Shown here: positions 9,644 to 32,081 of the stretch, one piece after another | Numbering within the stretch: position 1 is the stretch's first letter | Layout: every line of letters starts with the position of its first letter | NCBI RefSeq assembly: GCF_023614315.1 | Contig: NZ_CP095474.1 | Location: 2,939,282-2,976,767, forward strand | Reading direction: 5' to 3' | DNA: 37,486 nucleotides | Origin: Streptomyces sudanensis | Lineage (GTDB): Bacteria > Actinomycetota > Actinomycetes > Streptomycetales > Streptomycetaceae | The notes under the pieces: model-generated | Seen by the model: the letters and a program-made list of their open reading frames with translations, nothing else | Told to the model about the DNA's origin: nothing | Database searches by the model: none | Translations under genes and position numbers: made by a program

Positions 9644-9697
9644 TGGCCCGTATATCCGGCAGATCGCCGCGGGCACGCGCGCGTAGGGGGAAGCACG

Positions 9698-11359
<1,662 letters not shown>

Positions 11360-17430: not shown

Positions 17431-18798
17431 CTACAGGGTGCGCAGCAGCACCGAGGGGTGCTCGACGCAGTCGGCGACGTACCGCAGGAAGCCGCCCGCC
17501 GTACCGCCGTCGCACACCCGGTGGTCGAACGCGAGGGACAGCTGCACGACCTGGCGGACCGCCAGCTCGCCGTTGTGGACCCACGGCTTCGGGATGATCC
17601 GGCCCACACCGAGCATCGCCGCCTCGGGGTGGTTGATGATCGGTGTGGAGCCGTCGACGCCGAACACGCCGTAGTTGTTCAGCGTGAACGTGCCGCCCGT
17701 CAGGTCGGCCGGGGACAGGGTGCCCGCCCGTGCCACCTCGGTGAGGCGGGCGAACTCCGCCGTGAGGTCCTCGGCGGAGCGGGTGTGCGCGTCGCGGACG
17801 ACGGGCACGACCAGGCCGCGGTCGGTCTGGGCCGCGAAGCCCAGGTGCACCTCGGGAAGCCGGACGATCTCGCGGGCGTCGAGGTCGACGCGGGAGTTCA
17901 GCTCCGGGTAGCGGGCGAGCGCGGCCGTGCAGATCCGGGCCAGCAGCGCCAGCAGGGAGATCTTCGGCCCGCCGGCGGCGTTCATCGCGGCGCGCGCGGC
18001 CATGAGCTCCGTGGCGTCGGCGTCGACCCAGCAGGTGGCGTCGGGGATCTCCCGGCGGCTGCGGCTCAGCTTGTCGGCGACCGCACCGCGCACCCCGCGC
18101 AGCGGCACCCGCTCGGCCCCGGCCGGTGCGGGCCGCGCCGGAGCGGCGGCCTGCGCCCGGTCCTGCGCCCGGTCCTGGGCCCGTTCGACGTCGGCCCGCA
18201 GGATCAGCCCGTCCGGGCCGGAACCGCGCAGCTGCCGCAGATCGACCCCGCGCTCCCGGGCGAGCTTCCGCACGAGCGGCGAGATCACCGGCACCGGACC
18301 CTCCGCGGGCACGGCGGGAGCCGGCACGGGAGCGGGCTCCGGTGCGGGAGCGGGTGCGGTCCGGGGGGCGGACGCGGCGATCGGCGCCGCCGGACGGACC
18401 CGCCGCCTGCGGGCGGACGCCGTGCTCGTGCCGTAGCCGACCAGCACGTTCCCCGAGCCCTCGTCGGCGGGTTCGGCGCATCCCCCGACGGTGTCCGCCT
18501 GCAGGGCCGCACCGGGCTTCCCGGGCGCCGCGGAGGCGGCCGGCGCCTCCGTGGCGCCGACGGCGACGGTCAGCAGCGGGGCGCCGACCGGCAGCTCCTC
18601 GCCCTCCTCGCCGAAGCGGGCGGTGACCACGCCGCCGTAGGGGCAGGGGACCTCCACCATCGCCTTGGCCGTCTCGACCTCCACGACCGGCTGGTCGATG
18701 GCGACGACGTCCCCGACCGAGACGAGCCACCGCACGATCTCGGCCTCGGTGAGTCCTTCGCCGAGGTCGGGCAGCTTGAACTCCAGAACCTCGCTCAT
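17431..18798 (-). CDS. bkdC: 2-oxoacid dehydrogenase E2, dihydrolipoamide acyltransferase (BCKDH 2)
   Basis: 455-residue E2 acyltransferase, paralogue of the protein at 3512-4912. The lipoyl domain is at 1-80 with K45 in ETAKAMVE; the E3-binding domain is around PLVRKLARERGVDLRQLRGSGPDG; the catalytic domain contains the active-site HRVCDGG near the C terminus. The start ATG at 18798 overlaps the E1beta stop as ATGA. Compared with copy 1, the catalytic motif reads HRVCDG instead of HRLVDG, keeping the His and Asp, and the lipoyl domain is clearly diverged. It is part of a tightly overlapped operon ending in a strong hairpin, whereas the copy-1 operon has small gaps. Confidence 0.92.
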   Translation of the reverse strand: MSEVLEFKLPDLGEGLTEAEIVRWLVSVGDVVAIDQPVVEVETAKAMVEVPCPYGGVVTARFGEEGEELPVGAPLLTVAVGATEAPAASAAPGKPGAALQADTVGGCAEPADEGSGNVLVGYGTSTASARRRRVRPAAPIAASAPRTAPAPAPEPAPVPAPAVPAEGPVPVISPLVRKLARERGVDLRQLRGSGPDGLILRADVERAQDRAQDRAQAAAPARPAPAGAERVPLRGVRGAVADKLSRSRREIPDATCWVDADATELMAARAAMNAAGGPKISLLALLARICTAALARYPELNSRVDLDAREIVRLPEVHLGFAAQTDRGLVVPVVRDAHTRSAEDLTAEFARLTEVARAGTLSPADLTGGTFTLNNYGVFGVDGSTPIINHPEAAMLGVGRIIPKPWVHNGELAVRQVVQLSLAFDHRVCDGGTAGGFLRYVADCVEHPSVLLRTL

Positions 18799-19814
18799 CG
18801 GCTCGTCGCCTCCCACTGGAGCCGGGCGACCGCGTCCAGGACGCGGTCGACTCCCGGCAGGTGATGCCGCTCGAGCATCGGCGGCGGGTACGGGATGTCG
18901 AAGCCGGCCACCCGCAGCACCGGAGCCTCCAGGTGGTGGAAGCACCGCTCGGTGACCCGGGCGGCGATCTCCGCGCCCGGCCCGGCGAAGCCGGTGGACT
19001 CGTGCACGACGACCGCGCGGCCCGTGCGGCGCACGGACGCGCAGACGGTCTCGTCGTCGAACGGCACCAGCGAGCGCAGGTCCACGACCTCCAGGTCCCA
19101 GCCCTCCGCCTGCGCCGCCTCGGCCGCCTCCAGGCAGACCGGCACGGACGGGCCGTACGTGATCAGCGTGGCGCTGCGGCCGCTGCGGCGCACCACGGCG
19201 CGGCCGATCGGCTCCACGGCGGCCGGGTTGTCGGGCGACCAGTCGGACTTCGACCAGTACAGCCGCTTCGGCTCCAGGAAGACGACCGGGTCGTCGGAGG
19301 CGATGGCGGCGCGGAGCAGCCCGTAGGCGTCGTCGACCGTCGCGGGGGTGACGACGTGGAGCCCCGGGGTCGCCATGTAGTACGCCTCGGAGGAGTCGCT
19401 GTGGTGCTCGACACCGCCGATCCCGCCGCCGTACGGAACGCGGACGACCAGCGGCATCGGCATCGCGCCGCGCGTGCGGTTGCGCATCTTGGCGACGTGG
19501 CTGAGGAGCTGCTCGAAAGCCGGGTAGGCGAAGGCGTCGAACTGCATCTCGACGACCGGCCGCAGCCCGTACATCGCCATGCCGACGGCCGCACCGAGGA
19601 TGCCGGCCTCGGCGAGCGGCGTGTCGGCGCACCGGTCCTCGCCGAACTCCTTGGCGAGCCCGTCGGTGACGCGGAAGACACCGCCCAGCGTGCCGACGTC
19701 CTCGCCCATGACGTACACGGTCGGGTCCTCGGCCATCGCGTCGCGCATGGCCCGCTGGAGGGCCTGCGCCATGGTGGCGGGCTTGGCCGCCTTCTTGGCT
19801 GCCACGGTGGTCAT
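18795..19814 (-). CDS. bkdB: 2-oxoacid dehydrogenase E1 beta subunit (BCKDH 2)
   Basis: 339-residue E1 beta subunit, paralogue of that at 4926-5906. Shared motifs: VYVMGEDVGTLGGVFRVT, DTPLAEAGILGAAVGMA, EMQFDAFAYPAFEQLLS, RVPYGGGIGGVEHHS and VVHESTGFAGPGAEIAA. The N terminus carries a short Lys/Ala-rich extension (TVAAKKAAKPATMAQ). ATG at 19814 overlaps the E1alpha stop as ATGA and its own stop overlaps the E2 start the same way, so all three subunits should be made in step. It pairs with E1alpha as alpha2beta2 in the cytoplasmic complex. Confidence 0.92.
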   Translation of the reverse strand: MTTVAAKKAAKPATMAQALQRAMRDAMAEDPTVYVMGEDVGTLGGVFRVTDGLAKEFGEDRCADTPLAEAGILGAAVGMAMYGLRPVVEMQFDAFAYPAFEQLLSHVAKMRNRTRGAMPMPLVVRVPYGGGIGGVEHHSDSSEAYYMATPGLHVVTPATVDDAYGLLRAAIASDDPVVFLEPKRLYWSKSDWSPDNPAAVEPIGRAVVRRSGRSATLITYGPSVPVCLEAAEAAQAEGWDLEVVDLRSLVPFDDETVCASVRRTGRAVVVHESTGFAGPGAEIAARVTERCFHHLEAPVLRVAGFDIPYPPPMLERHHLPGVDRVLDAVARLQWEATSR

Positions 19815-20953
19815 CGGTCGTCACCTTCCGCTTCGGCGTCCAGCTCGGCCCGCAGCTGCGCGGCCTGCTCCCTGAGCTGCGCGGTCTGCTCCGCGTAGAC
19901 GTGGGTGAACAGGTCCATGGGGTCGAGCACGGCGTCGGCGTTCATCCGCTCGCGCAGTCGTGCGGCCATCGTCTCGGCCTCGTCGGCCGCCTCGCGGATG
20001 CCGTCCTCGTCGATGAGGCCGCGCTCCGTCAGTTCCCGCTCCAGCAGCTCGATCGGGTCGTGCCGCCGCCACGCCTCGACCTCGTCGGCCTCGCGGTACC
20101 GGGTCGCGTCGTCGGCGTTGGTGTGGGCGTCGACGCGGTACGTCACGGCCTCGACGAGCGTGGGGCCGCCGCCGCGCCGGGCGCGGGCCACCGCCTCGGA
20201 GAGCACCTGGTGGACGGCGGCCGCGTCGTTGCCGTCGACGAGCCGGCCGGGCATGCCGTAGCCGACGGCCTTGTGGGCGAGCGACGGGGCCGCGGTCTGC
20301 TTGTGGAGCGGCACGGAGATCGCGAAGCCGTTGTTCTGCACGAGGAAGACCACGGGGGCCTGCCACACGGCGGCGAAGTTCAGGGCCTCGTGGAAGTCGC
20401 CCTCGCTGGTGCCGCCGTCGCCGATCATGGCCAGCGCCACGACGTCGTCGCCCTTGAGGCGGGCCGCGTGGGCCAGGCCCACGGCGTGCGGGAGCTGCGT
20501 GGCGAGCGGGGTGCACAGGGGGGCGATGCGGTGCTCGCGCGGGTCGTACCCGGTGTGCCAGTCGCCCCGCAGCAGCGTCAGCGCCTCGACGGGGTCCAGT
20601 CCGCGTGCCACGGCGGCCAGGGTGTCCCGGTACGACGGGAACAGCCAGTCCCGCTCCTCGAGGACGAGCGCGGCGGCCACCTCGCAGGCCTCCTGGCCCG
20701 TGCTGGAGGGGTACACGGCCAGACGGCCCTGCTTGGTGAGCGCGGTGGCCTGCGTGTTGTACCGGCGGCCGCGCACCAGCTCGGCGTAGAGCCGGCGCAG
20801 CACGGCGGGGGCGAAGCCGGCCGCCGCGTCCGTGCCCAGCACCCGGTAGGGCTCGGGGTCCGGGAGCAGCGGCGCGGGGTCCGTGCGCGGCTTCCACGCC
20901 GGCGGCGGAGTGGGTCGGTAAGAGGCCGCGCCGGGCAGCTCTTGGACCGTCAT
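19811..20953 (-). CDS. bkdA: 2-oxoacid dehydrogenase E1 alpha subunit (BCKDH 2)
   Basis: 380-residue E1 alpha subunit. The thiamine-diphosphate motif runs from G178-D179-G180 (MIGDGGTSEGD) to N207-N208 (VQNNGFAIS). The loop AHTNADDATRYR places T278 at the position phosphorylated in mitochondrial BCKDH. The ATG at 20953 follows a strong GAGGAGG; the frame is open to 21010 but without resemblance. It lacks the Arg/Lys-rich N-terminal tail of copy 1 and instead starts with a Pro-rich segment. It is first in the operon and divergent from an Lrp/AsnC regulator. The 181-base promoter interval contains a PaaR-like operator and a DnaA box. Confidence 0.92.
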   Translation of the reverse strand: MTVQELPGAASYRPTPPPAWKPRTDPAPLLPDPEPYRVLGTDAAAGFAPAVLRRLYAELVRGRRYNTQATALTKQGRLAVYPSSTGQEACEVAAALVLEERDWLFPSYRDTLAAVARGLDPVEALTLLRGDWHTGYDPREHRIAPLCTPLATQLPHAVGLAHAARLKGDDVVALAMIGDGGTSEGDFHEALNFAAVWQAPVVFLVQNNGFAISVPLHKQTAAPSLAHKAVGYGMPGRLVDGNDAAAVHQVLSEAVARARRGGGPTLVEAVTYRVDAHTNADDATRYREADEVEAWRRHDPIELLERELTERGLIDEDGIREAADEAETMAARLRERMNADAVLDPMDLFTHVYAEQTAQLREQAAQLRAELDAEAEGDDR

Positions 20954-21019
20954 GACAGCACCTCCTCGTGGGAGTGGGCATATGCCCCGGGGACGGCGCG
21001 GGTGTGGCACGCCTCACCT

Positions 21020-21033
21020 ACCGATTGTTCGGT
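21020..21033. promoter_or_regulatory. PaaR-like TetR operator, BCKDH 2 / Lrp intergenic copy
   Basis: ACCGATTGTTCGGT: inverted repeat ACCGA-N4-TCGGT. It differs by one base from the operator at 23966-23979 and, read on the other strand, from the one at 28493-28506. It lies 66 bases upstream of the BCKDH-2 E1alpha start and about 100 upstream of the Lrp gene start, and could control either gene. Confidence 0.6.
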
Positions 21034-21067
21034 CGCGGAGCCATTCTGGCTACAGGCGCCCCGACCC

Positions 21068-21076
21068 TGTGGACAA
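21068..21076 (-). promoter_or_regulatory. DnaA box (exact TTGTCCACA)
   Basis: Reads TTGTCCACA on the minus strand, the preferred Streptomyces DnaA box. It lies in the BCKDH-2/Lrp divergent intergenic region, 58 bases before the Lrp gene start. It is an isolated single box, not an origin cluster. Confidence 0.55.
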
Positions 21077-21134
21077 ACGGTTTTGCACAGCCCGGGGCGA
21101 GGGCAGCCCGTCCATGAGAGAAAGGTGGGGGGAT

Positions 21135-21662
21135 ATGGACGCTGAACAAATGGCCAACGGTTGGGGGCAGGCTTCGCAGGGTGACGAGCGTGCTCCGGCG
21201 CCGCGTCCGCTCGACGCCGTCGACCGCGACATCCTGCGGATCCTTCAGGTGGACGGGCGGGCGTCGATACGGTCGGTCGCCGAGCGGGTCCACGTGTCGC
21301 GTGCGAACGCGTACGCGCGGATCAACCGGCTCATCGACGACGGGGTGATCCGCGGCTTCGGTGCGCGCGTCAACCACGAGCGGGCGGGTCAGGGGGCTTC
21401 CGCGTACATCACGCTCAAGATCGTGCAGAACTCGTGGCGCACGGTCCGCGAGCAGCTGCAGACGCTGCCGGGCGCGGCGCACATCGCCCTGGTCAGCGGG
21501 GACTTCGACGTGCTGCTGCTGGTGCACACGCCGGACAACCGCAGCCTGCGCGAACTGGTCCTGACCAGGCTCCAGGCGATCCCGGAGGTGCTGTCCACGC
21601 GCACGCTGCTGGTGTTCGAGGAGACGGAGCTCAACCGCAGGTTCGCGGCCGACGGGGTGTAG
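21135..21662 (+). CDS. bkdR: Lrp/AsnC family transcriptional regulator (BkdR-like)
   Basis: 175 residues. The N-terminal winged-helix DNA-binding domain is clear: LDAVDRDILRILQVDGRASIRSVAERVHVSRANAYARINRLIDDGVIRGF. The C-terminal RAM ligand-binding domain follows (AYITLKI ... GAAHIALVSGDFDVLLLVHT ... TRTLLVFEE). The start is ATG at 21135 with a strong purine run (AAAGGTGGGGGGAT); about 35 disordered residues precede the HTH. It diverges from the BCKDH-2 operon; Lrp-type regulators in this position control BCKDH operons in Streptomyces (the name bkdR is used there), presumably sensing branched-chain amino or keto acids. It ends at a bidirectional hairpin shared with the convergent TetR gene. 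Confidence 0.88.
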   Translation: MDAEQMANGWGQASQGDERAPAPRPLDAVDRDILRILQVDGRASIRSVAERVHVSRANAYARINRLIDDGVIRGFGARVNHERAGQGASAYITLKIVQNSWRTVREQLQTLPGAAHIALVSGDFDVLLLVHTPDNRSLRELVLTRLQAIPEVLSTRTLLVFEETELNRRFAADGV

Positions 21663-21693
21663 GGGCCCGGCGGCCGGGACGGAGCGCGGGAGG

Positions 21694-21741
21694 CCCCGCC
21701 GGGACGCGCCCTTCCCGGGTGGCGGGGGCGTCCCGGCGGGG
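21694..21741. terminator. bidirectional terminator between Lrp and TetR genes
   Basis: Perfect 14-bp inverted repeat (21694-21707 with 21728-21741) separated by 20 bases, located between two convergent stops at 21662 and 21770. Confidence 0.7.
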
Positions 21742-21769
21742 GGCGGCCCGGTCCCCCGCCGGGAGGGCC

Positions 21770-22363
21770 TCAGCGGCTGGTGCGCAGCCCCTCGAAGGCC
21801 AGGCGGACCAGCGTGTCCGCCACCTGCCGGCGGCCGATCCCGTCGCCGGCCTGGGGGCGGTACCACTCGACGAGCGAGTTGACCATGCCGAACAGCAGCC
21901 TGGTCGCGATCCTTATGTCCACGTCGGAGCGGAGGTCCCCCTCCGCCGCCGCCGCCTTCATCAGATCGGCGATGCGGTGGTCGAACTCGCGGCGCCGCTC
22001 CAGGGCCCAGCGCTCGGTCCGCGTGTTGCCGCGCACCCGCAGCAGCAGCGTCACGTACGGCAGTTCGTCGATCAGCACCTCGACCGTGCGCCGGGCGACG
22101 TACTCGACCCGCTCGACCGCCCGGCCGTGGGTGGCGGGCTCCTCGTCGAGCACGGCGAACAACCCGTCCAGGGCGCGGCTGACCGCCCGTCGCAGCAGCT
22201 CCTCCTTGCCGGTGACGTGGTGGTAGATCGAGGACTTGGAGATCCCGGCGGCCCTGGAGAGGTGCTCCATCGACGTGCCGTCGTAGCCGCGCTCGTTGAA
22301 GACCCGGACGGCGACCGAGAGCAGCGTCTCGGGCGTGTAGGCGTCGCGCCTGACGCCCGTCAC
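21770..22363 (-). CDS. paaR: TetR family regulator (PaaR-like)
   Basis: 197-residue TetR repressor. The N-terminal helix-turn-helix is plain: TPETLLSVAVRVFNERGYDGTSMEHLSRAAGISKSSIYHHVTGKEELLRRA. The rest is a helical ligand-binding domain. Start GTG at 22363 overlaps the paaH stop as GTGA, so it is translated together with that gene, and through the operator upstream of paaH it would repress itself. Related TetR proteins next to paa genes (PaaR) release DNA on binding phenylacetyl-CoA; that ligand is inferred here from context. Three copies of a matching palindrome in this window are the likely targets. Confidence 0.8.
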   Translation of the reverse strand: MTGVRRDAYTPETLLSVAVRVFNERGYDGTSMEHLSRAAGISKSSIYHHVTGKEELLRRAVSRALDGLFAVLDEEPATHGRAVERVEYVARRTVEVLIDELPYVTLLLRVRGNTRTERWALERRREFDHRIADLMKAAAAEGDLRSDVDIRIATRLLFGMVNSLVEWYRPQAGDGIGRRQVADTLVRLAFEGLRTSR

Positions 22364-23910
22364 CGCTCGCTCTCCCGCTCGTCCTCGGCGTAGGAGTGGC
22401 GGTAGAGCGCCAGGGAGGGCGCGTAGCGTCCCGAGGGGTCGCGCTGGTGGAGTTCCTCCAGGATGCCGTACGCCCAGCTCCTGCCGAGCCTGCGGCTCCA
22501 CTCGAGGGGACCCAGGGGGTAGTTGACGCCGAGCCGCATCGCGGTGTCGACGTCCTCCTCGGTGGCGACGCCCTTGGCGACCGCGTCGTGCGCGAGGTCG
22601 ATGAGCCTCGCCACGGTCCGGGCGACGATCATGCCCGGCACGTCGCCGATGACGCTGACCTTCTTGCCGAGCGCCTGGAAGAGGCCGATCGCCTGGTCGA
22701 GGGTCTCCTGCGAGGTGTCGGGGCCCGCGGCGAGCGCGATGCGGGTCGCCCGGCGGTAGTCGAGGGCGAGGTCGAAGTAGACGACGTCGCGGAACTCCAC
22801 GGAGGTCTGGCCGTCGGCCGGCACCAGCTGGCCCCCGCTGGGCAGCTCCAGGCGCGTGCCCCGGTCCTCCTCCTCCTCGCGGAGGGGGATCCCGGCCTCG
22901 CGGATCAGGTCGAGCACCTCGCCGCAGGGCGCGAGGTCGCCCTCGACCACGACGTACGCGGGCGGGTCGGCCGGCTCGGCGGTGTGCGGCTCGGGGCGGT
23001 GGACGCCCCGGTCGTCGTAGGAGTACCAGCCGCGGCCCGACTTGCGGCCGAGCATCCCGGCCTCGACCAGGCGCCGCTGGGCGAGCGAGGGGCGGAACCG
23101 GGGGTCCTGGAAGAACGCCTCCCAGACCGAGGTGGTCACCGCCTCGTTGACGTCGTGGCCGATGAGGTCGGTCAGCTCGAAGGCGCCCATGCGGAAGCCG
23201 CCGGACTCGCGCAGGACGGCGTCGATGGTGGCCGGGTCGGCGCCCTGCTCCTCGTACACCGCGAACGCCTCGGCGTAGAAGGGGCGGGCGAGGCGGTTGA
23301 CGATGAACCCCGGGGTGTCGGCGCAGGCCACCGGGGTCTTGCCCCAGGCGCGGGCCGTCTCGTACGCACGCGCGGCGAAGGCGGCGTCGGTCGCGAAGCC
23401 GCTGACGATCTCGACGAGGGGGAGCAGCGGCGCCGGGTTGAAGAAGTGCATGCCGACGAAGCGGCCGGGGAGGCGCAGCGCGCCGCCGACGGCGGTGACG
23501 GAGAGCGAGGAGGTGTTGGTGGCGAGCAGGCAGTCGTCGCCGACGACCTCCTCCAGCGCGGCGAAGAGCTCCCGCTTCACCTCGAGCCGCTCCACGATCG
23601 CCTCGACGACGAGCGCGGCGTCGGCCAGCTCGTCGAGGGAGGCGGCCGGGTGGAGGCGCGCGGCGGCCGCGTCCCGCTCCTCCGGGGTGAGGCGGCCCTT
23701 GGCGACCAGCCGGTCCAGCCGTCCGACGACGGACTCGGCGGCCTGCTCGGCCCGGCCCGGCACGGCGTCGTGGAGGCGCACGGGGTGGCCCGCGACGAGC
23801 GCGACCTGCGCGATGCCCTGGCCCATGGTCCCCGTGCCGACGACGGCGACCGTCCGGTCGCGTCCGACGGCGGTGCCGGCCGCCCGGCCGGTGGTCTCGG
23901 TGCCGGTCAT
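22360..23910 (-). CDS. paaH: 3-hydroxyacyl-CoA dehydrogenase, PaaH type
   Basis: 516-residue NAD-dependent dehydrogenase with two tandem C-terminal 3HCDH domains, matching the long phenylacetate-specific family (TIGR02279-like, about 500 residues) rather than the 280-residue butyryl type. The Rossmann motif is VAVVGTGTMGQGIAQ (21-35). The NTSSLS and GMHFFNPAPLLPLVE segments surround the catalytic His-Glu region, and GRKSGRGWYSYD ends the first half. A second 3HCDH domain follows (about 385-500, ending WSRRLGRSWAYGILEELH). It oxidises the 3-hydroxyadipyl-CoA intermediate of phenylacetate breakdown. ATG at 23910 follows GGGGAGGATC. It is translationally coupled to the TetR gene and divergent from paaN, with an operator between them. 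Confidence 0.85.
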   Translation of the reverse strand: MTGTETTGRAAGTAVGRDRTVAVVGTGTMGQGIAQVALVAGHPVRLHDAVPGRAEQAAESVVGRLDRLVAKGRLTPEERDAAAARLHPAASLDELADAALVVEAIVERLEVKRELFAALEEVVGDDCLLATNTSSLSVTAVGGALRLPGRFVGMHFFNPAPLLPLVEIVSGFATDAAFAARAYETARAWGKTPVACADTPGFIVNRLARPFYAEAFAVYEEQGADPATIDAVLRESGGFRMGAFELTDLIGHDVNEAVTTSVWEAFFQDPRFRPSLAQRRLVEAGMLGRKSGRGWYSYDDRGVHRPEPHTAEPADPPAYVVVEGDLAPCGEVLDLIREAGIPLREEEEDRGTRLELPSGGQLVPADGQTSVEFRDVVYFDLALDYRRATRIALAAGPDTSQETLDQAIGLFQALGKKVSVIGDVPGMIVARTVARLIDLAHDAVAKGVATEEDVDTAMRLGVNYPLGPLEWSRRLGRSWAYGILEELHQRDPSGRYAPSLALYRHSYAEDERESER

Positions 23911-23932
23911 GTCAGTGATCCTCCCCGCTGGG

Positions 23933-23941
23933 TTCTCCACA
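23933..23941 (+). promoter_or_regulatory. DnaA box-like element (TTCTCCACA)
   Basis: Fits the degenerate Streptomyces DnaA box (Y-Y-G/A/C-TCCACA). It lies 22 bases upstream of the paaH start and could be chance on its own. Confidence 0.35.
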
Positions 23942-23957
23942 GGTCCGAGAGACCCCC

Positions 23958-23985
23958 TTGTCCCGACCGATCGTTCGGTTACTCT
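23958..23985 (+). promoter_or_regulatory. candidate paaN promoter
   Basis: TTGTCC, a 16-base spacer and TACTCT, 48 bases upstream of the paaN ATG. The operator occupies the spacer. It is a pattern match only. Confidence 0.4.
23966..23979. promoter_or_regulatory. PaaR-like TetR operator, paaH/paaN divergent promoter
   Basis: ACCGATCGTTCGGT. The 18-base stretch 23965-23982 is an exact reverse-complement copy of the element upstream of paaA (28492-28509). It lies about 55 bases from both divergent starts and fills the spacer of a candidate paaN promoter (TTGTCC 23958-23963, TACTCT 23980-23985), a classic repressor position. Confidence 0.78.
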
Positions 23986-24033
23986 AGCTCTGTCCGCCTG
24001 TCCCTGCCCAGCTCATCGAGGAGTTGGTCCGCC

Positions 24034-25728
24034 ATGGCCGCCGAGCAGCTGACCCCCGCCCACCTGTCCGAGAGGCACCGTCCCACGCTCGACCAGGCGC
24101 TGGAGGCGATCCGTACGCGTGCCTACTGGTCGCCGCACCCGGAGCACCCCAAGGCGTACGGGGAGAACGGCTCGCTGAGCGCCGCGGAGGGCCTCGCCGC
24201 CCACCGGGCGGTCCTCGGCTCCCGCTTCGACCTGGACCAGCCGGGCACGGACGGCTGGACCGGCGGGGAGGTCTCCCCGTACGGCCCGGCGCTCGGCGTG
24301 GAGTACCCGCACGTGGACGCGGACGTGCTGCTGCCGGCGATGCGCGCCGGCATGGGCGCCTGGCGGGACGCCGGCGCGGACACGCGCGCCCTGGTCTGCC
24401 TGGAGATCCTCGCCCGCATCAGCGCCCGCACGCACGAGTTCGCGCACGCGGTGATGCACACCAGCGGGCAGGCGTTCATGATGGCGTTCCAGGCGGGCGG
24501 CCCCCACGCGCAGGACCGCGGCCTGGAGGCGGTGGCCTACGCGTACGCGGAGCAGACGCGGACGCCCCTGGAGGCCGACTGGTCCAAGCCGCAGGGCAAG
24601 CGGGACCCGCTGGAGCTCCGCAAGACCTTCACCCCGGTCGGCCGCGGCGTCTCCCTGATGATCGGCTGCAACACCTTCCCGACGTGGAACGGCTACCCGG
24701 GCCTGTTCGCCTCCCTGGCGACCGGCAACGCCGTCCTGGTCAAGCCGCACCCGCGCGCCGTGCTGCCGCTGGCGCTGACGGTGCGGATCGCACGCGACGT
24801 GCTGGCCGAGGCGGGCTTCGACCCGAACCTGGTGGCGCTGGCCGTCGAGCGCCCCGGCGAGGGCATCGCCAAGGCGCTGGCCGTCCGCCCGGAGATCCGG
24901 ATCATCGACTACACGGGCTCGACGTCGTTCGGCGACTGGCTGGAGGCCAACGCCCGCCAGGCGCAGGTCTACACGGAGAAGGCCGGCGTCAACACGATCG
25001 TCGTCGACTCCACCGACGACTACAAGGGCATGCTGGCCAACCTGGCCTTCTCCCTGTCCCTGTACAGCGGCCAGATGTGCACGACCCCGCAGAACCTGCT
25101 GATCCCGCGCGGCGGCATCACGACCGACGCCGGCCCCAAGTCGTACGACGAGGTGGTCGCCGACCTCGCCGCCGCCGTGAGCGGCCTGCTGGGCGACGAC
25201 GCGCGGGCGAACGGCCTGCTGGGCGCGCTGGTCAACCCGGACGTGAAGGCCCGCCTGGAGGCGGCCGCCGACCTGGGCGAGGTCGCCCTGCCGTCCCGCG
25301 AGGTCGTCAACCCGGACTTCCCGGACGCCGTGGTGCGCACCCCGCTCGTGGTCAAGCTGGACGGTTCCAAGCCGGACGCCGAGGCCGCCTACATGTCGGA
25401 GTGCTTCGGCCCCGTCTCCTTCGCCGTGGCCGTGGACTCCACCGCCGACGCGCTGGAGCTGCTGCGGCGCACGGTCCGCGAGAAGGGCGCGATGACGGTC
25501 GGCGCGTACACGACGTCCCCGGACGTGGAGCGCGCGGTCGAGGAGGTCTGCCTGGAGGAGTCGGCGCAGCTCTCGCTGAACCTGACGGGCGGCGTCTACG
25601 TCAACCAGACCGCCGCGTTCTCCGACTTCCACGGCTCGGGCGGCAATCCGGCCGCGAACGCCGCCCTGTGCGACAGCGCCTTCGTGGCCAACCGCTTCCG
25701 GGTGGTGGAGGTCCGCCGCCCGGCGTGA
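24034..25728 (+). CDS. paaN: phenylacetic acid degradation protein PaaN (aldehyde dehydrogenase family)
   Basis: 564-residue aldehyde dehydrogenase-like protein of the PaaN type (TIGR02288-like), without the fused MaoC hydratase of E. coli PaaZ. Visible: TPVGRGVSLMIGCNTFPTWNG, NAVLVKPHPRA, nucleotide-binding DYTGSTSFGDW (292-302), general-base E316 in YTEKAG and nucleophile C349 in SGQMCTTPQN. It probably oxidises the ring-opened semialdehyde of the phenylacetyl-CoA pathway, so a separate hydratase or hydrolase would be needed. The ATG at 24034 follows GAGGAG. It is divergent from paaH-paaR with a shared operator, and its 3' end faces the convergent RNA methyltransferase gene across a hairpin. 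Confidence 0.87.
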   Translation: MAAEQLTPAHLSERHRPTLDQALEAIRTRAYWSPHPEHPKAYGENGSLSAAEGLAAHRAVLGSRFDLDQPGTDGWTGGEVSPYGPALGVEYPHVDADVLLPAMRAGMGAWRDAGADTRALVCLEILARISARTHEFAHAVMHTSGQAFMMAFQAGGPHAQDRGLEAVAYAYAEQTRTPLEADWSKPQGKRDPLELRKTFTPVGRGVSLMIGCNTFPTWNGYPGLFASLATGNAVLVKPHPRAVLPLALTVRIARDVLAEAGFDPNLVALAVERPGEGIAKALAVRPEIRIIDYTGSTSFGDWLEANARQAQVYTEKAGVNTIVVDSTDDYKGMLANLAFSLSLYSGQMCTTPQNLLIPRGGITTDAGPKSYDEVVADLAAAVSGLLGDDARANGLLGALVNPDVKARLEAAADLGEVALPSREVVNPDFPDAVVRTPLVVKLDGSKPDAEAAYMSECFGPVSFAVAVDSTADALELLRRTVREKGAMTVGAYTTSPDVERAVEEVCLEESAQLSLNLTGGVYVNQTAAFSDFHGSGGNPAANAALCDSAFVANRFRVVEVRRPA

Positions 25729-25741
25729 CCCGGCGGCACGC

Positions 25742-25785
25742 GGCGCCTGGTACGTGATCCCGCGTACGGACATGTTCCAGGCGCC
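25742..25785. terminator. hairpin between paaN and RNA methyltransferase
   Basis: 9-bp inverted repeat GGCGCCTGG / CCAGGCGCC (25742-25750 and 25777-25785) around a 26-base interior that can itself fold (TACG/CGTA). It lies between convergent genes. Confidence 0.5.
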
Positions 25786-25800
25786 CCGCTCCCCCGCCCC

Positions 25801-26469
25801 TCAGGCGGGGGAGTCCCCGATCTCGGCGTACCGCTGGATCCAGGCGTGCATGGCGATCGCGGCGGCGGCCCCGGCGTTGATGGAGCGGGTCGAGCCGAAC
25901 TGGGCGATGGAGCACACCGTCCGGGCGTGCTCACGGGCCTCCTCGGTGAGGCCCGGCCCCTCCTGCCCGAACAGCAGCACGCAGCGGCGGGGCAGCTCCG
26001 TGCGTTCCAGCGGCACCGCGCCCGGCAGGTTGTCGATGCCGATGATCGGCAGGCCCTCCGCCTCGGCCCAGGCCGTCAGCGACGCGGTGTCGGGGTGGTG
26101 GCGCACGTGCTGGTACCGGTCGGTGACCATCGCGCCGCGCCGGTTCCAGCGGCGGCGGCCGACGATGTGCACCTCCTTCGCCAGGAAGGCGTTGGCGGTC
26201 CGGACGACCGATCCGATGTTGAAGTCGTGGCTCCAGTTCTCCACGGCCACGTGGAAGTCGTGGCGGCGGGTGTCCAGGTCGGCGACGATCGCCTCGCGCG
26301 TCCAGTACCGGTAGCGGTCGACGACGTTGCGCCGGTCGCCCCCGGCGAGCAGCTCGGGGTCGTAGCGCCCGTCCTGCGGCCAGGGCAGGGGGTGCGGCCC
26401 GACGCCGACCTCGGAGCCGTAGCCGTCGTCGTACTGGAGGGGGACGTCCGTCCGGGTCTCGCTGTTCAC
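25801..26469 (-). CDS. SpoU/TrmH family RNA methyltransferase
   Basis: 222-residue SPOUT-class 2'-O-methyltransferase. The three knot motifs are present: NWSHDFNIGSVVRTANAF (motif 1), PRRCVLLFGQEGPGL (motif 2) and FGSTRSINAGAAAAIAMHAW (motif 3), which together bind S-adenosylmethionine in the trefoil knot. Start GTG at 26469 overlaps the HTTM gene stop as GTGA and lacks a good ribosome site of its own, so translation probably depends on coupling. It is the last gene of the DUF5819-HTTM-methyltransferase operon. Substrate (tRNA or rRNA 2'-O-ribose) cannot be told; the N-terminal about 65 residues are outside the knot. Confidence 0.88.
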   Translation of the reverse strand: MNSETRTDVPLQYDDGYGSEVGVGPHPLPWPQDGRYDPELLAGGDRRNVVDRYRYWTREAIVADLDTRRHDFHVAVENWSHDFNIGSVVRTANAFLAKEVHIVGRRRWNRRGAMVTDRYQHVRHHPDTASLTAWAEAEGLPIIGIDNLPGAVPLERTELPRRCVLLFGQEGPGLTEEAREHARTVCSIAQFGSTRSINAGAAAAIAMHAWIQRYAEIGDSPA

Positions 26470-27689
26470 CCGACGAGGGTACGGGGGGCCGGCGCGTCCG
26501 GGACGGGGTCCCGTCCCTCCCTTCCCGTCGCGCGGCCGGGCCGCAGCCGCCTCCCGGCGCGGCGGACCCGGCCCTCCAGCCACAGCAGGAAGACCGTCGG
26601 CAGGAACACCGCGTCCGCGGTGATCATGGCGAGGGAGAAGGCCGGCAGCCCGAGCAGCACCGCGATCCCCGCGTGCTCCATCATCATCACCGCGAGCAGC
26701 ACGTTCTTGACCCTGCGGTTGAACAGGGTGAACGGGAAGGCCACCTGCACGATCACGGTGCCGTAGGTGATGATCATGACCACCAGGCTGGCGCCGGCCA
26801 GCAGACCGGACAGGGCGGGCCACGGGCTGAAGTAGTCGAGTTTCAGCGGGTAGTACAGGGCGGTGCCGTCCTGCCACCGCGAACCCTGGATCTTGTACCA
26901 GCCGGCCGTCGCGTAGATCAGGCACACCTCGGCCATGATCACCGCGAGGGTGGCGTTGTGCAGCAGGTTGGCGAGGACGTCGAGCAGGACGCGCGGCTGG
27001 CCGGGGGCGATGCGGCACACCAGCCACCACGCGCCCTGGGCGAGCCACAGCAGCCACAGCAGCGCGACGATCCACGGCTCGCCGCTCCTGTCGTGGAACA
27101 GCAGGACCGCCACCAGGCCGAAGCCCAGCACCGACCACAGCACCACTCCCGCCGGGTCGGTCCCGGCGCCCGCGGGGCGGCGGGACCGGCGGCGCGCGTC
27201 CAGCGACCAGACGCGCCCGCAGCGGGTGAGGACGAGGTAGATCGCCATGAGGTGGATGACGTTGTCACCGCCGTCGCCCATGAAGACGGAGCGGTTCTGC
27301 AGCGAGAGGACCCCCACCATGAACAGCGCCGACGTGGCCCGGGTGCGCCATCCGACCATCAGCAGGGCACTGGAGAGCACGGCGCCCGCGTAGACGGCCT
27401 CGAACCACAGGACGGAGTCCGTCCACACCAGGACGGTGAAGGAGTGGTTGTCCGCGATCAGCTGCCGCGCCATGTGCCAGCCCCACGGGCCCTGGGGCCC
27501 GTACAGCTCGTGGCGGTGGGGGAACTCGCGCAGGAGGAAGACCAGCCAGGTCGCGGCGAACCCGATCCGGACGACGGCGCTCTGGTAGGGGCCCAGGGCG
27601 GTTCCGGTGAGCCGCTGGACGGCCCTGGCGAGGCGCTGGTCGGGGCTCTCCCGGCGGTCCGCGTGCCGGGGTGCGCTGCTCGGGTTCAC
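26466..27689 (-). CDS. HTTM domain membrane protein (vitamin K-dependent carboxylase-like fold)
   Basis: 407-residue integral membrane protein with a short hydrophilic N terminus and about 9-10 hydrophobic segments. The HTTM pattern is visible: LGPYQSAVVRIGFAATWLVFLL near the start, then a helix-loop NRSVFMGDGGDNVIHLMAIYL, LIYATAGWYKIQGSRWQDGTALYYPL and FPFTLFNRRVKNVLL. These motifs are shared by HTTM/SdpB-like proteins and vitamin K-dependent gamma-carboxylases. The C-terminal tail is basic and Pro-rich. Start GTG at 27689 overlaps the DUF5819 stop as GTGA, and its stop overlaps the methyltransferase start likewise. In Bacillus the HTTM protein SdpB works with SdpA to mature a secreted peptide; the paired DUF5819 protein here makes a similar two-protein unit plausible. 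Confidence 0.85.
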   Translation of the reverse strand: MNPSSAPRHADRRESPDQRLARAVQRLTGTALGPYQSAVVRIGFAATWLVFLLREFPHRHELYGPQGPWGWHMARQLIADNHSFTVLVWTDSVLWFEAVYAGAVLSSALLMVGWRTRATSALFMVGVLSLQNRSVFMGDGGDNVIHLMAIYLVLTRCGRVWSLDARRRSRRPAGAGTDPAGVVLWSVLGFGLVAVLLFHDRSGEPWIVALLWLLWLAQGAWWLVCRIAPGQPRVLLDVLANLLHNATLAVIMAEVCLIYATAGWYKIQGSRWQDGTALYYPLKLDYFSPWPALSGLLAGASLVVMIITYGTVIVQVAFPFTLFNRRVKNVLLAVMMMEHAGIAVLLGLPAFSLAMITADAVFLPTVFLLWLEGRVRRAGRRLRPGRATGREGRDPVPDAPAPRTLVG

Positions 27690-28408
27690 CGGTCTCCCCC
27701 CGCCGTCCGGCCGCCGGTGACGCCGCCCGGCAGATCGGCGGCGGTCACGGTCCACCAGGGCAGGATCCGGTGGTACGGCCGCGTGTCGGTCCGCTCGCGG
27801 CTCCACGGCGGAGCGGCCACGTTCGTGGTGGTCGAACGTATCTGTATCCGCTCGACCCTCCCGCCCAGCCGGTGCTCCTCCAGCCGCATCATGGCGATGC
27901 GCCGCACGTAGCGCTCGGAGAGGCCGGCGCGCAGGGGGTCCGCCGGGTCGCCGTCGTGCTGGTTGGCGTAGAAGTCCCAGGCGCGGCGCAACTCGTTCTG
28001 CTGCGTGTGGCTGGGGAAGGGGTTGCCGCGGATCGCCGCGGCGTCGTCGGCGGTCAGGTCGATCCACGGGGTGACCTCGCGGACGCCGCCGTCCACCACC
28101 TCGGCGCGGACCTGGACCGCGACGTTCTGCTGGAGCGGGTTGGGCGCGAAGAGCTTCCAGTTCTGCTCGAACTCCGGCATGACCCAGTCGTCGACGGTCT
28201 CGCCGTGCTGCTTGGACAGCGTGTTCGACGGTGCGACGTGCAGGAACACCACGCCCACGTGGAAGCAGGCGACCAGCCCGATCACCGCCAGGGCGACGGC
28301 TCCCACCACCTGGTAGGGCAGGGAGAGCGCCGCCAGCCCGGTGCGATCGGGGCCTTCCGCGCCGGCAGCGTCCCCGGCACGTCCGCGCCGCTCGTCGTAC
28401 GACTCCAT
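27686..28408 (-). CDS. DUF5819 family membrane-anchored protein
   Basis: 240 residues. A cytoplasmic N terminus of about 35 residues is followed by one membrane helix (LPYQVVGAVALAVIGLVACFHVGVVFLHV, about 30-58) and an extracytoplasmic domain. That domain starts with the typical EFEQNWKLFAPNP segment and ends ILPWWTVT. It belongs to the DUF5819 family, commonly encoded next to HTTM proteins in actinobacteria. Topology and the W-FAPNP motif are reminiscent of SdpA, the partner of SdpB, but this is a resemblance, not a demonstrated homology. Start ATG at 28408 has GGAGCGGGG upstream; the frame is open to 28489. It is first in its operon and divergent from paaA, 112 bases apart. Confidence 0.8.
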   Translation of the reverse strand: MESYDERRGRAGDAAGAEGPDRTGLAALSLPYQVVGAVALAVIGLVACFHVGVVFLHVAPSNTLSKQHGETVDDWVMPEFEQNWKLFAPNPLQQNVAVQVRAEVVDGGVREVTPWIDLTADDAAAIRGNPFPSHTQQNELRRAWDFYANQHDGDPADPLRAGLSERYVRRIAMMRLEEHRLGGRVERIQIRSTTTNVAAPPWSRERTDTRPYHRILPWWTVTAADLPGGVTGGRTAGGDR

Positions 28409-28438
28409 CCCGCCCCGCTCCGCGTCTTCCCGCCCCGG

Positions 28439-28447
28439 TTGTCCACA
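28439..28447 (+). promoter_or_regulatory. DnaA box (exact TTGTCCACA)
   Basis: Exact TTGTCCACA, immediately upstream of the candidate paaA -35 element and 31 bases upstream of the divergent DUF5819 start. Confidence 0.55.
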
Positions 28448-28450
28448 GGG

Positions 28451-28480
28451 TTGACACCATACGGGCCGTCGACTCACCAT
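28451..28480 (+). promoter_or_regulatory. candidate paaABCDE promoter
   Basis: TTGACA (28451-28456, a perfect -35), an 18-base spacer and CACCAT (28475-28480). A transcript starting near 28487 would begin just before the operator, so a bound repressor would block it as it starts. Confidence 0.5.
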
Positions 28481-28492
28481 TGAAGCCATTCA

Positions 28493-28506
28493 ACCGAACG
28501 ATCGGT
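28493..28506. promoter_or_regulatory. PaaR-like TetR operator, paaA copy
   Basis: ACCGAACGATCGGT, 14 bases before the paaA ATG and just upstream of its GGGGG ribosome site. It is part of an 18-base stretch (28492-28509) identical, reverse-complemented, to the paaH/paaN operator. Confidence 0.78.
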
Positions 28507-28520
28507 CGGTAGGGGGCCCG

Positions 28521-29510: not shown

Positions 29511-29794
29511 CGACCAGCGACTGGCCGCTGTGGGAGGTGTTCGTGCGCTCGCGCCGCGGGCTGTCCCACACCCACGCGGGGAGCCTGCACGCCCCGGACG
29601 CCGAGATGGCCCTGCGCAACGCCCGCGACCTCTACACCCGGCGCAACGAGGGCGTGTCCATCTGGGTCGTCCCCGCCGCCGCGATCACCGCGTCGTCACC
29701 GGACGAGAAGGACCCGTTCTTCGAGCCGTCCGCCGACAAGCCCTACCGGCACCCGACCTTCTACGAGATCCCCGAGGGGGTGCAGCACCTGTGA
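29507..29794 (+). CDS. paaB: 1,2-phenylacetyl-CoA epoxidase subunit PaaB
   Basis: 95-residue small subunit, full length for the family. It starts [24 protein letters not shown], the standard PaaB signature, and ends [10 protein letters not shown]. It links PaaAC heterodimers into the higher-order complex needed for activity and for contact with the reductase. ATG at 29507 overlaps the paaA stop by ATGA, and its stop overlaps the paaC start as GTGA. Confidence 0.95.
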
Positions 29795-30531
29795 CGGCCT
29801 CCCTGAACACCGCCGCCCTCGCGCTCGGCGACGACGCGCTGGTGCTGTCCCACCGACTGGGCGAGTGGGCGGGCCACGCGCCCGTGCTGGAGGAGGAGGT
29901 CGCCCTCGCCAACATCGCGCTGGACCTGCTCGGACAGGCCCGCGTCCTGCTCTCCCTCGTCGGCGACGAGGACGAGCTGGCGTTCCTCCGCGAGGAGCGT
30001 GCGTTCCGCAACGTCCAGCTCGTCGAGCAGCCGAACGGCGACTTCGCCCACACGATCGTCCGCCAGCTGTACTTCTCCACCTACCAGCGCCTGCTGTACG
30101 GGCGTCTCGCCGCCGCCGACGTGCGCCCGGACGACGAGGCCCACGAGGCTCTGCGCGGCCTGGCCGCGAAGGCGGTCAAGGAGGTCGCCTACCACCAGGA
30201 CCACGCCGAGCAGTGGACGCTCCGCCTTGGCGACGGCACGCCCGAGAGCCATGACCGGATGCGGACCGCCTGCGACGCGCTGTGGCGCTTCACCGGTGAG
30301 CTGTTCCAGCCCGTCGAAGGCCTCGACGTCGACTGGCGGGAGCTGGAGGCCGACTGGCTGACCTCGGTGTCCGCCGTGCTGACCCGGGCGACCCTCCCCC
30401 TTCCCGAGGGAGCCCGGACGACCGCGTGGAGCGCGGGCGCGGGCCGGCAGGGCGTCCACACCGAGTCGTTCGGGCGGATGCTCGCCGAGATGCAGCACCT
30501 GCACCGCAGCCACCCGGGAGCGTCATGGTGA
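29791..30531 (+). CDS. paaC: 1,2-phenylacetyl-CoA epoxidase subunit PaaC
   Basis: 246-residue structural subunit with the same ferritin-like fold as PaaA but without the diiron site. Typical segments: GDDALVLSHRLGEWAGHAPVLEEEVALANIALDLLGQARVLL, FRNVQLVEQPNGDFAHTIVRQL and VKEVAYHQDHAEQWTLRLGDGT. Start GTG at 29791 overlaps paaB by GTGA. The C terminus runs into the start of paaD with a 7-base overlap. Length is normal. Confidence 0.95.
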   Translation: MTASLNTAALALGDDALVLSHRLGEWAGHAPVLEEEVALANIALDLLGQARVLLSLVGDEDELAFLREERAFRNVQLVEQPNGDFAHTIVRQLYFSTYQRLLYGRLAAADVRPDDEAHEALRGLAAKAVKEVAYHQDHAEQWTLRLGDGTPESHDRMRTACDALWRFTGELFQPVEGLDVDWRELEADWLTSVSAVLTRATLPLPEGARTTAWSAGAGRQGVHTESFGRMLAEMQHLHRSHPGASW

Positions 30532-31019
30532 CCATGACTCCGCTCGAAGAGGAGCTGAGCCGGCTGGCCGGTTCGGTGCCCGACCCCGAGATGCCCGTGC
30601 TCACCCTGGAGGACCTGGGTGTGGTGAGGGGCGTACGGGTCCTCGGTCCCGGCAAGGTGAAGGTCGAGCTGACTCCGACGTACACGGGCTGCCCGGCGAT
30701 CGAGGCCATGTCCTCGGACATCGAGCGGGTCCTCCACGACCGGGGCGTCGAGGAGGTCTCGGTCGTCACGGTCCTCTCCCCCGCCTGGTCCACGGACGAC
30801 ATCAGCGACGAGGGCCGGAGGAAACTCGCCGAGTTCGGCATAGCACCGCCCCGTCGGCAGCAGTCCGACGGACCCGTGCCGCTCACCCTCGCCATCCGCT
30901 GCCCGCACTGCGGCTCGACCGACACCGAGCTGCTGAGCAGGTTCTCCTCGACCGCGTGCAAGTCGCTGCGCCGTTGCGCCTCCTGCCGCGAACCCTTCGA
31001 CCACTTCAAGGAGTTGTAG
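30525..31019 (+). CDS. paaD: phenylacetate degradation protein PaaD (MIP18/SufT-like)
   Basis: 164 residues. The N-terminal MIP18 domain (VPDPEMPVLTLEDLGVVRGV, then TPTYTGCPAIEAM) is shared with iron-sulphur assembly factors. The C terminus holds a zinc-ribbon-like set of four Cys (CPHCGS and CASCREP). PaaD is thought to help mature the Fe-S centre of the epoxidase reductase PaaE. ATG at 30525 has GGGAG four bases before it; GTG at 30528 would give a GTGA overlap with paaC and is equally possible. It is followed directly by paaE, whose ATG uses the last base of the paaD TAG. Confidence 0.92.
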   Translation: MVTMTPLEEELSRLAGSVPDPEMPVLTLEDLGVVRGVRVLGPGKVKVELTPTYTGCPAIEAMSSDIERVLHDRGVEEVSVVTVLSPAWSTDDISDEGRRKLAEFGIAPPRRQQSDGPVPLTLAIRCPHCGSTDTELLSRFSSTACKSLRRCASCREPFDHFKEL

Positions 31020-32081
31020 ATGTTCCATCCGCTCCGGGTGAGCGAGGTCGAGCGGCTCACGGACGACTCGGTGGCCGTCACCTTCGCCGTCCCGCCAGAG
31101 CTGCGGGAGGCGTTCCGCCACACCCCCGGCCAGCACCTGACGATGCGCCGGACCACCGCCGAAGGCGAGGAGATCCGGCGCACGTACTCGATCTGCTCGC
31201 CCGCCGCCGCCCCCGGTGAGGACCCGGTACTGCGCGTCGGCATCCGGCACGTCGAGGGCGGCGAGTTCTCCACCTACGCGCTGAAGGAACTCGCCGTCGG
31301 CGACACGGTGGAGGTCATGGAGCCGATGGGCAGGTTCGTCCTGCCGCCGCGGCCCGGGCACTTCGCGGCGATCGTCGGCGGCAGCGGCATCACCCCCGTG
31401 CTGTCGATGGCGGCGACACTGCTGGCGCGGGAGCCGCAGGCCCGCTTCTGCCTCGTGCGCAGCGACCGCACGGCCGCGTCGACGATGTTCCTCGACGAGG
31501 TCGCCGACCTCAAGGACCGCTACCCCGACCGCTTCCAGCTGGTCACGGTGCTGTCCCGGGAGGAGCAGCAGGCCGGGCTGCCGTCCGGTCGGCTCGACGA
31601 GGAGCGGCTGTCCCGCCTCCTGCCGGCGCTGCTGACGGTGGACGAGGTGGGAGGCTGGTTCCTGTGCGGCCCGTTCGGGCTGGTCAAGGGCGCCGAGCGG
31701 GCACTGCTGGGCCTGGGCGTGCCGAAGAACCGGGTCCACCAGGAGATCTTCCACGTGGAAGACGGCTCGTCGGCGACCCGTCGCCCCACGCCGGGCGAGG
31801 TGCCCGCCGCCACGCTGACCGCCACTCTGGACGGCCGGTCCGGGACATGGCCGGTCCAGGAGGGCGAGTCCCTGCTGGAGACCGTGCTGCGCAGCCGGTC
31901 GGATGCGCCGTACGCCTGCAAGGGCGGCGTATGCGGTACGTGCCGGGCGTTCCTGGTCTCGGGTGAGGTCCGGATGGACCGCAACTACGCGCTGGAGGCC
32001 GAGGAGACGGACGCCGGCTATGTGCTGGCGTGCCAGTCGCATGCGATGACGCCGGAGGTCGAGCTCGACTTCGACCGGTGA
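31020..32081 (+). CDS. paaE: 1,2-phenylacetyl-CoA epoxidase reductase PaaE
   Basis: 353-residue flavin and iron-sulphur reductase that passes electrons from NADPH to the PaaA diiron centre. Order of domains: FAD-binding (RTYSIC at 54-59), NAD(P)-binding (VGGSGITPVLSM, 119-130) and C-terminal plant-type [2Fe-2S] ferredoxin with C300, C305, C308 and C338 (CKGGVCGTC ... ACQS). The ATG begins at the last base of the coding end of paaD (TAGATG junction, 31020). It is the last gene of the operon. A 16-base perfect palindrome with a CACGTG core lies inside the coding region at 31747-31762. Confidence 0.95.
   Translation: MFHPLRVSEVERLTDDSVAVTFAVPPELREAFRHTPGQHLTMRRTTAEGEEIRRTYSICSPAAAPGEDPVLRVGIRHVEGGEFSTYALKELAVGDTVEVMEPMGRFVLPPRPGHFAAIVGGSGITPVLSMAATLLAREPQARFCLVRSDRTAASTMFLDEVADLKDRYPDRFQLVTVLSREEQQAGLPSGRLDEERLSRLLPALLTVDEVGGWFLCGPFGLVKGAERALLGLGVPKNRVHQEIFHVEDGSSATRRPTPGEVPAATLTATLDGRSGTWPVQEGESLLETVLRSRSDAPYACKGGVCGTCRAFLVSGEVRMDRNYALEAEETDAGYVLACQSHAMTPEVELDFDR

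Follow-up and report, generated by a model that had tools for sequence, protein, structure and literature searches.

Does the repressor of phenylacetate degradation also control branched-chain 2-oxoacid oxidation in Streptomyces? The question is raised by a locus of Streptomyces sudanensis, analysed here as one stretch of 37,486 nucleotides (the window; contig NZ_CP095474.1 of assembly GCF_023614315.1, positions 2,939,282 to 2,976,767, forward strand), in which phenylacetate (paa) genes and the gene of their putative TetR-family repressor, PaaR, lie beside the branched-chain 2-oxoacid dehydrogenase (BCKDH) operon bkdA2B2C2, encoding BCKDH-2, and its divergent regulator gene bkdR. BkdR and BCKDH set the branched-chain acyl-coenzyme A (acyl-CoA) supply for polyketides. 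An earlier note on this DNA had proposed that the PaaR regulon extends to bkdA2/bkdR; site conservation, tracking of the site with PaaR and co-expression in S. rimosus support this extension as a strong prediction. One repressor would thus probably control two acyl-CoA sources feeding antibiotic production.

Operator copies in the window

Three copies of an imperfect palindrome, ACCGA-N4-TCGGT, were found in the window, all situated between gene starts:

21020..21033, plus strand: PaaR-type operator ACCGATTGTTCGGT in the divergent bkdA2/bkdR intergenic region; exact in 85/85 Streptomyces loci and in 13/13 selected loci of other genera
23963..23980, plus strand: PaaR operator 18-mer (core 23966-23979) between paaH and paaN; core exact in 85/85 loci, flanks largely conserved
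28492..28509, minus strand: PaaR operator, the same 18-mer (core 28493-28506), just upstream of paaA; exact in 67/67 loci counted (window included)

The 18-mer AACCGAACGATCGGTCGG upstream of paaA recurs between paaH and paaN as its reverse complement, CCGACCGATCGTTCGGTT, with the identity ending at 18 bases; the earlier note had recognised this identity, although it placed the second copy at 23965-23982 instead of 23963-23980. Both share the 14-base core ACCGATCGTTCGGT, from which the bkd copy differs, as previously noted, by a single C to T change at core position 7. This third copy lies inside a 181-base gap (20954-21134), with bkdA2 (minus strand) on one side and bkdR (plus strand) on the other. 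The coupling of the TetR gene to paaH, also proposed earlier, is evident from the GTG start of the former at 22363, which overlaps the paaH stop (GTGA, 22360-22363).

A scan of the window allowing up to three mismatches gave 12 matches, compared with a mean of 4.59 and a maximum of 10 in 100 shuffles. The whole-genome scan that the earlier note had suggested as a check located perfect ACCGANCGNTCGGT at the two paa sites only, in a genome of 5.26 Mb on one contig; with at most one mismatch it occurred at 27 places, paa sites included, versus 6 in the reversed control, and 27 places per genome imply that about 0.001 would be expected by luck in a 181-base gap. The exact arms ACCGA-N4-TCGGT were present at nine genome places, three of them the window sites, versus one in the reversed control. 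The other six were set aside, each lying within a coding-like frame according to a composition test that is weak for two of them (L139 and L143).

Conservation of the bkd copy and its co-occurrence with PaaR

To follow the sites in relatives, 85 Streptomyces loci (L006-L090) were compared, comprising 80 stretches taken from genomes down the list of PaaR similarity and five Streptomyces records. Exact ACCGATTGTTCGGT was found between bkdA2 and bkdR in all 83 fetched stretches holding the pair, and the exact 14-mer was also present, after fetching, in the remaining two loci (G188 and G089), where the pair was at an edge or relocated. The operator core at paaH/paaN (or paaN) was likewise exact in 85/85. 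When 84 sequences, the window included, were aligned without gaps on the bkd site over 244 columns, no 14-base stretch other than the bkd 14-mer proved fully invariant. This invariance, together with the reversed and shuffled controls, excludes a chance match as the explanation for the bkd copy. The next conserved blocks in the gap were a GGCTACAG-like stretch and CTGTGGACAAACGG...CACAG, which we take as candidate promoter and BkdR elements. One conserved block forms an inverted repeat that might be guessed to be a site of BkdR self-regulation:

21067..21090, plus strand: second conserved block CTGTGGACAAACGGTTTTGCACAG, an imperfect inverted repeat upstream of bkdR; conserved columns in the 84 sequences

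The operator lay 102 bases from the inferred bkdR start in most loci (range 81-243), and at a variable 56-148 bases from the inferred bkdA2 start. The 14-mer was also found between bkdA2 and bkdR in 13/13 loci of other Streptomycetaceae genera (L126-L138), drawn from genomes already having at least one operator match; there, the four central bases of the paa sites are variable, and drift is seen in the surrounding sequence.

In 23 of the 85 Streptomyces loci (L016-L018, L021, L023, L025-L027, L029-L031, L033, L035, L036, L038, L041-L046, L056 and L080), paaH was not found between paaR and paaN; paaR then adjoins paaN, with the operator between them.

Across 199 Streptomyces genomes, ACCGATYGTTCGGT gave 552 matches, versus 2 in total in the reversed control, with three matches in 146 genomes, two in 39, four in seven, one in two, six in one and none in four. 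PaaR was found in 194 of these genomes, every one with at least one site. The five genomes lacking PaaR comprise all four in which no site was present (G001, which is 79% complete, G037, G121 and G156), together with G198 (81% complete), in which there are three. In a set of 150 genomes of the family, PaaR was found in 143 and the bkd-type 14-mer in 142, that is, in 140 of the 143 with PaaR and two of the seven without. Conservation of the third site in relatives was among the checks named in the earlier note, and the site passes it in the 85 loci and in these 140 genomes. The 14-mer and PaaR shared a contig in 139 of the 140 genomes, within 3 kb of each other in 133 and at most 8.2 kb apart; in the other genome (G521) they were on different contigs, with PaaR at a contig edge. 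Conversely, G492, which is 93% complete and gave no PaaR hit, has kept bkdR-bkdA2 and recognisable neighbouring blocks and has lost the operator. The bkdA2/bkdR pair thus has the operator in its promoter region, conserved along with the regulator, as expected for a member of the PaaR regulon.

Of the genomes with more than three matches (G018, G019, G044, G057, G060, G065, G150 and G185), two were inspected, G018 and G057. The fourth exact operator of G018 (L098:4747-4760) lies directly upstream of paaK (phenylacetate-CoA ligase, 695 bits), and PaaR control in this genome may reach the ligase. The extra site in G057 was disregarded, since it falls within a coding-like frame.

Of 296 genomes of the class, the genus Streptomyces included, 92 encode a PaaR relative at E 1e-35. 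Fifteen loci from outside the family (L104-L118) had an exact-arm site in four cases, a one-mismatch site in eight more and none in three, and these sites were at or near the starts of paaA, paaN or paaR. The operator was absent from six other bkdR-bkdA pairs, of which L102, L119 and L123 belong to the family and L122, L124 and L125 do not. From this distribution, the paa operator looks old, and the bkd copy looks like an addition made in the Streptomycetaceae and fixed since.

A putative PaaR circuit and its alternatives

The genes that would be governed by these operators, and that of the regulator itself, are as follows:

21770..22363, minus strand: paaR, TetR-family repressor gene; GTG start overlaps the paaH stop; best solved relative PDB 2iai (SCO3833), E 7.4e-90
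21135..21662, plus strand: bkdR, Lrp/AsnC-type regulator; Pfam AsnC_trans_reg and HTH_AsnC-type; named from its order beside bkdA2
19811..20953, minus strand: bkdA2, 2-oxoacid dehydrogenase E1 alpha; TIGR03181 over cut-off (profile labelled pyruvate dehydrogenase E1 alpha)
18795..19814, minus strand: bkdB2, E1 beta; PRK09212 and PRK11892 matches, both under cut-off
17431..18810, minus strand: bkdC2, E2 acyltransferase (start approximate); 2-oxoacid_dh, Biotin_lipoyl and E3_binding domains
22360..23910, minus strand: paaH, 3-hydroxyacyl-CoA dehydrogenase; PRK08268 over cut-off, TIGR02279 at 583 bits, under its cut-off of 669
24034..25728, plus strand: paaN; TIGR02288 PaaN_2, 962 bits
28521..29510, plus strand: paaA, first gene of the phenylacetyl-CoA epoxidase operon; TIGR02156 over cut-off
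29530..32081, plus strand: paaC, paaD and paaE, downstream epoxidase genes; TIGR02158 and TIGR02159 over cut-off, TIGR02160 just under; paaB is expected at the start of this stretch

The paaR product matches TetR-family profiles, all under their curated cut-offs, and its gene is coupled to paaH and near paaN; it is taken as PaaR, being a TetR-family protein encoded with paa genes that have ACCGA-N4-TCGGT at their promoters. Its recognition region (RGYDGTSME.LS.AAGISKSSIYHHV), which includes the DNA-reading helix, is unchanged in the 85 PaaR proteins of Streptomyces and the 13 of the other genera. The Lrp/AsnC gene is divergent from bkdA2B2C2, in the order of PMC12323332, from which the name bkdA2 is also taken, and the naming of bkdR has a precedent in SCO3832, described as bkdR beside bkdA2 (PMC8176718, PMC12323332). 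Elsewhere in the window, the two 2-oxoacid dehydrogenase E2 genes flank a pair of adjacent, oppositely oriented PknB-like Ser/Thr kinase genes (7712-11359), whose profile matches are just under cut-off.

The placement of the paa operators suits a repressor blocking transcription. At paaH/paaN the core lies within the 16-base spacer between TTGTCC (23958-23963) and TACTCT (23980-23985), in a promoter-like region whose operator flanks are largely conserved in the alignment, and the paaA operator is just downstream of a TTGACA...CACCAT promoter-like pair; all of these boxes were named by eye. We predict that PaaR binds as a dimer to ACCGA-N4-TCGGT at all three places. At the paa sites it would block paaH-paaR, paaN and paaA-E, autoregulation included, and at the bkd copy the same dimer would repress bkdA2B2C2, bkdR or both. 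Phenylacetyl-CoA would free the operators from PaaR, so that the phenylacetate genes and BCKDH-2 are switched on together. The likely reason for such an arrangement would be that BCKDH-2 is able to make phenylacetyl-CoA from phenylpyruvate, or that it supplements the acyl-CoA pool when aromatic amino acids are burned. While the sites, their invariance, their tracking with PaaR and the operator match are read directly from the genomes, binding, ligand, direction of control, promoters and purpose are predictions, and we give a probability of roughly 0.8 to repression by PaaR of paaH-paaR, paaN, paaA-E and the bkdA2/bkdR region, relieved by phenylacetyl-CoA.

Published expression data are consistent with this circuit. 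In a published transcriptome (PMC10612213, Table 2), S. rimosus HP126 differed from its wild-type parent by log2 +5.0/+4.6/+4.7 for BCKDH E1 alpha/E1 beta/E2, +4.1/+3.5/+3.3 for the phenylacetyl-CoA epoxidase genes paaE/D/C and +3.1 for paaK, with valine dehydrogenase at -1.7; in HP126 dv3 relative to HP126, the changes were -2.9/-2.7/-2.7 for BCKDH, -1.4/-1.0/0 for paaE/D/C and -1.3 for paaK. The S. rimosus locus tags given there, 19935-19945 and 19995-20005, are spaced as the gene order of the window predicts, and we infer that they mark the same locus. A PaaR operator at bkd would offer a simple reason for the joint rise of BCKDH and phenylacetate genes in this oxytetracycline hyperproducer. 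A Lon study in S. coelicolor reports bkdA2B2C2 up to 20.6-fold higher, and the terms paaA and phenylacet are absent from its main text (PMC13033682).

Several observations weigh against control of bkd by PaaR. HP126 is heavily mutagenized (2497/8534 genes changed) and dv3 further rearranged, paaC does not fall in dv3 (PMC10612213), and PaaR is unnamed in the main text of that study; because the strains carry many other changes, their co-expression is weak evidence, support rather than proof. Clean loss of the operator without PaaR is limited to a single genome, G492. In G037 and G156, not only PaaR and the site are missing but also bkdA2 beside bkdR, which makes these genomes a weaker test, and they were dropped as cases of clean co-loss. 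PaaR occurs without a bkd site in G484 and G518 (PaaR 55-57% identical) and in G502 (61%, bkdR-bkdA2 present), and the PaaR-less G487 and G512 carry the bkd 14-mer elsewhere. The latter two genomes have no BkdR, and none of the sought paa/bkd genes, nor PaaR, was near the 14-mer; not being beside bkdR, bkdA2 or PaaR, these copies were not counted as bkd sites. A consensus scan of the bkdA2/bkdR gap gave no sigma-70-type promoter. Finally, an invariant T replaces the C of the paa copies at position 7 of the bkd copy, so that this base may be held by more than plain PaaR binding; its role may be to alter the affinity or to form part of a promoter.

Two further features of these genomes were recorded. 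In G037 and G156 (L091 and L092), bkdR and paaN are near each other, and a more divergent paaA is found elsewhere in the genome. In G487, near-copies of the 14-mer (ACCGAACAATCGGT, ACCGAACGATCCGT and similar) are clustered at L099:8004-9657, several of them spaced by about 138 or 276 bases; the region looks repeat-rich, with none of the sought paa/bkd genes nearby.

The site could also be a PaaR operator acting within one pathway rather than between two, since BCKDH-2 may make phenylacetyl-CoA from phenylpyruvate; as a phenylpyruvate dehydrogenase on the route from phenylalanine to phenylacetyl-CoA, it would be under ordinary substrate induction. This possibility deserves serious attention, even if we lean against it. 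A precedent is available in S. pristinaespiralis, where the pyruvate dehydrogenase-like PglB/C are suggested to carry out this conversion (PMC7089894). The other 2-oxoacid dehydrogenase operon of the window has no near-match of the operator, the bkdR locus of G037 and G156 has neither PaaR nor bkdA2, and BCKDH rises in S. rimosus while valine dehydrogenase falls (PMC10612213), all of which would fit a role in phenylalanine breakdown. However, the ordinary source of phenylacetyl-CoA, PaaK, is over cut-off in 89/101 Streptomyces genomes, this one included, so that BCKDH-2 is a possible but not a required source, and the idea that Streptomyces needs BCKDH for want of PaaK was dropped; the complex is also described as branched-chain in the relevant passages of PMC12323332 and PMC13033682. 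Alternatively, PaaR at this site might mainly control bkdR, so that phenylacetyl-CoA acts on morphogenesis and antibiotics through BkdR and not directly on BCKDH-2. Conservation does continue from the operator in the direction of bkdR, whereas the inferred bkdA2 start is at a variable distance (56-148 bases), and a 2005 study by Sprusansky is said, from its title, to have found bkdR required for morphogenesis and antibiotic production. Such a restricted target nevertheless seems doubtful, given that the BCKDH genes head the S. rimosus table (PMC10612213), in which bkdR itself is not listed.

Other proteins might occupy the site. A different TetR-family protein of the same operator class would account for the invariant base that sets the centre of the bkd site apart from the paa copies, and the passages of PMC8176718 on Saccharopolyspora cite another TetR protein, PccD, as controlling the BCKDH operon. 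We consider this improbable: the bkd site follows the presence of PaaR genome by genome, the operator is lost in the PaaR-less G492, and the site is unlike the published motifs of PccD and AccR (PMC10933834). It is more improbable still, to the point of being hard to sustain, that the 14-mer is a site for BkdR, or a promoter element, with an accidental likeness to the paa operator. Its position upstream of bkdR and beside other conserved blocks would suit such a role, but both its arms are identical to those of the paa operator, an accident would leave the tracking with PaaR unexplained, and its absence from the six other bkdR-bkdA pairs led us to reject it as a BkdR site.

Repression of both gene sets by PaaR is therefore preferred, and a broader model can be tentatively built on it. 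BkdA2B2C2 might be an aromatic as well as branched-chain 2-oxoacid dehydrogenase feeding phenylacetyl-CoA to the paa pathway, with PaaR and phenylacetyl-CoA forming a feed-forward switch over BkdA2B2C2 and BkdR, fixed across most Streptomycetaceae, whereby an aromatic acyl-CoA would dictate how much branched polyketide starter is available and, via BkdR, control development; we regard this full model as speculative and rather unlikely to hold in all its parts. If PaaR does control bkd, a very large group of antibiotic producers would have their branched-chain acyl-CoA supply influenced by the level of phenylacetyl-CoA, and hence by their use of aromatic amino acids. Regulator and operator would both be known by name, and deletion of paaR would be a strain design ready for use.

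Comparison with known regulators

The closest parallel in operator sequence is PaaR of Burkholderia cenocepacia, whose operator ACCGACCGGTCGGTT has the same ACCGA-N4-TCGGT arms and was tested by reporters and gel shift, with the paaA, paaH and paaZ promoters as targets (PMC9493321). This PaaR is released by compound II of the review, which we take to be phenylacetyl-CoA; unlike the bkd site described here, a branched-chain dehydrogenase target is unmentioned in the review's passages on it. PaaR of Thermus thermophilus is also a TetR-type paa repressor, and a title cited in the same review names phenylacetyl-CoA as its effector, but its consensus, CNAACGNNCGTTNG, has different arms (PMC9493321). 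The closest solved structure to the S. sudanensis protein, SCO3833 of S. coelicolor (PDB 2iai), was deposited as a putative transcriptional regulator, with an entry name that gives no target.

Among actinomycetes, PccD (Saccharopolyspora erythraea) and AccR (S. avermitilis) are also TetR regulators of branched- or short-chain acyl-CoA metabolism, PccD being cited as a controller of the BCKDH operon (PMC8176718, PMC10933834). Their printed motifs, T/ATGACGG/CTGT/CTGT/A and GTTAA-N6-TTAAC, are unlike the bkd 14-mer, which fits neither when compared by eye, and the descriptions in these sources carry no aromatic link; both were rejected as candidates for the bkd operator.

PaaR of S. pristinaespiralis (SSDG_03033; Zhao et al. 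2015), presumably of the same protein lineage, is a TetR regulator of the paa cluster linked to antibiotic precursor supply; the paa cluster is its named target, and the accounts of it in PMC10933834 and PMC7089894 leave a BCKDH target unmentioned. Its putative motif, AACGA-N4-TCGGT (PMC10933834), is in a register four bases over from ACCGA-N4-TCGGT. The paaA operator of the window contains this motif exactly (28497-28510) but the bkd site does not, and would therefore go unnoticed in a scan based on the motif. No report of PaaR control of bkd was found in the literature searched, which did not extend to the original PaaR paper (Zhao et al. 2015), where it may be mentioned. Control of paa genes by PaaR in Streptomyces is thus known from the accounts in PMC10933834 and PMC7089894, and what the S. 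sudanensis locus adds is bkd as a predicted new target of a known regulator.

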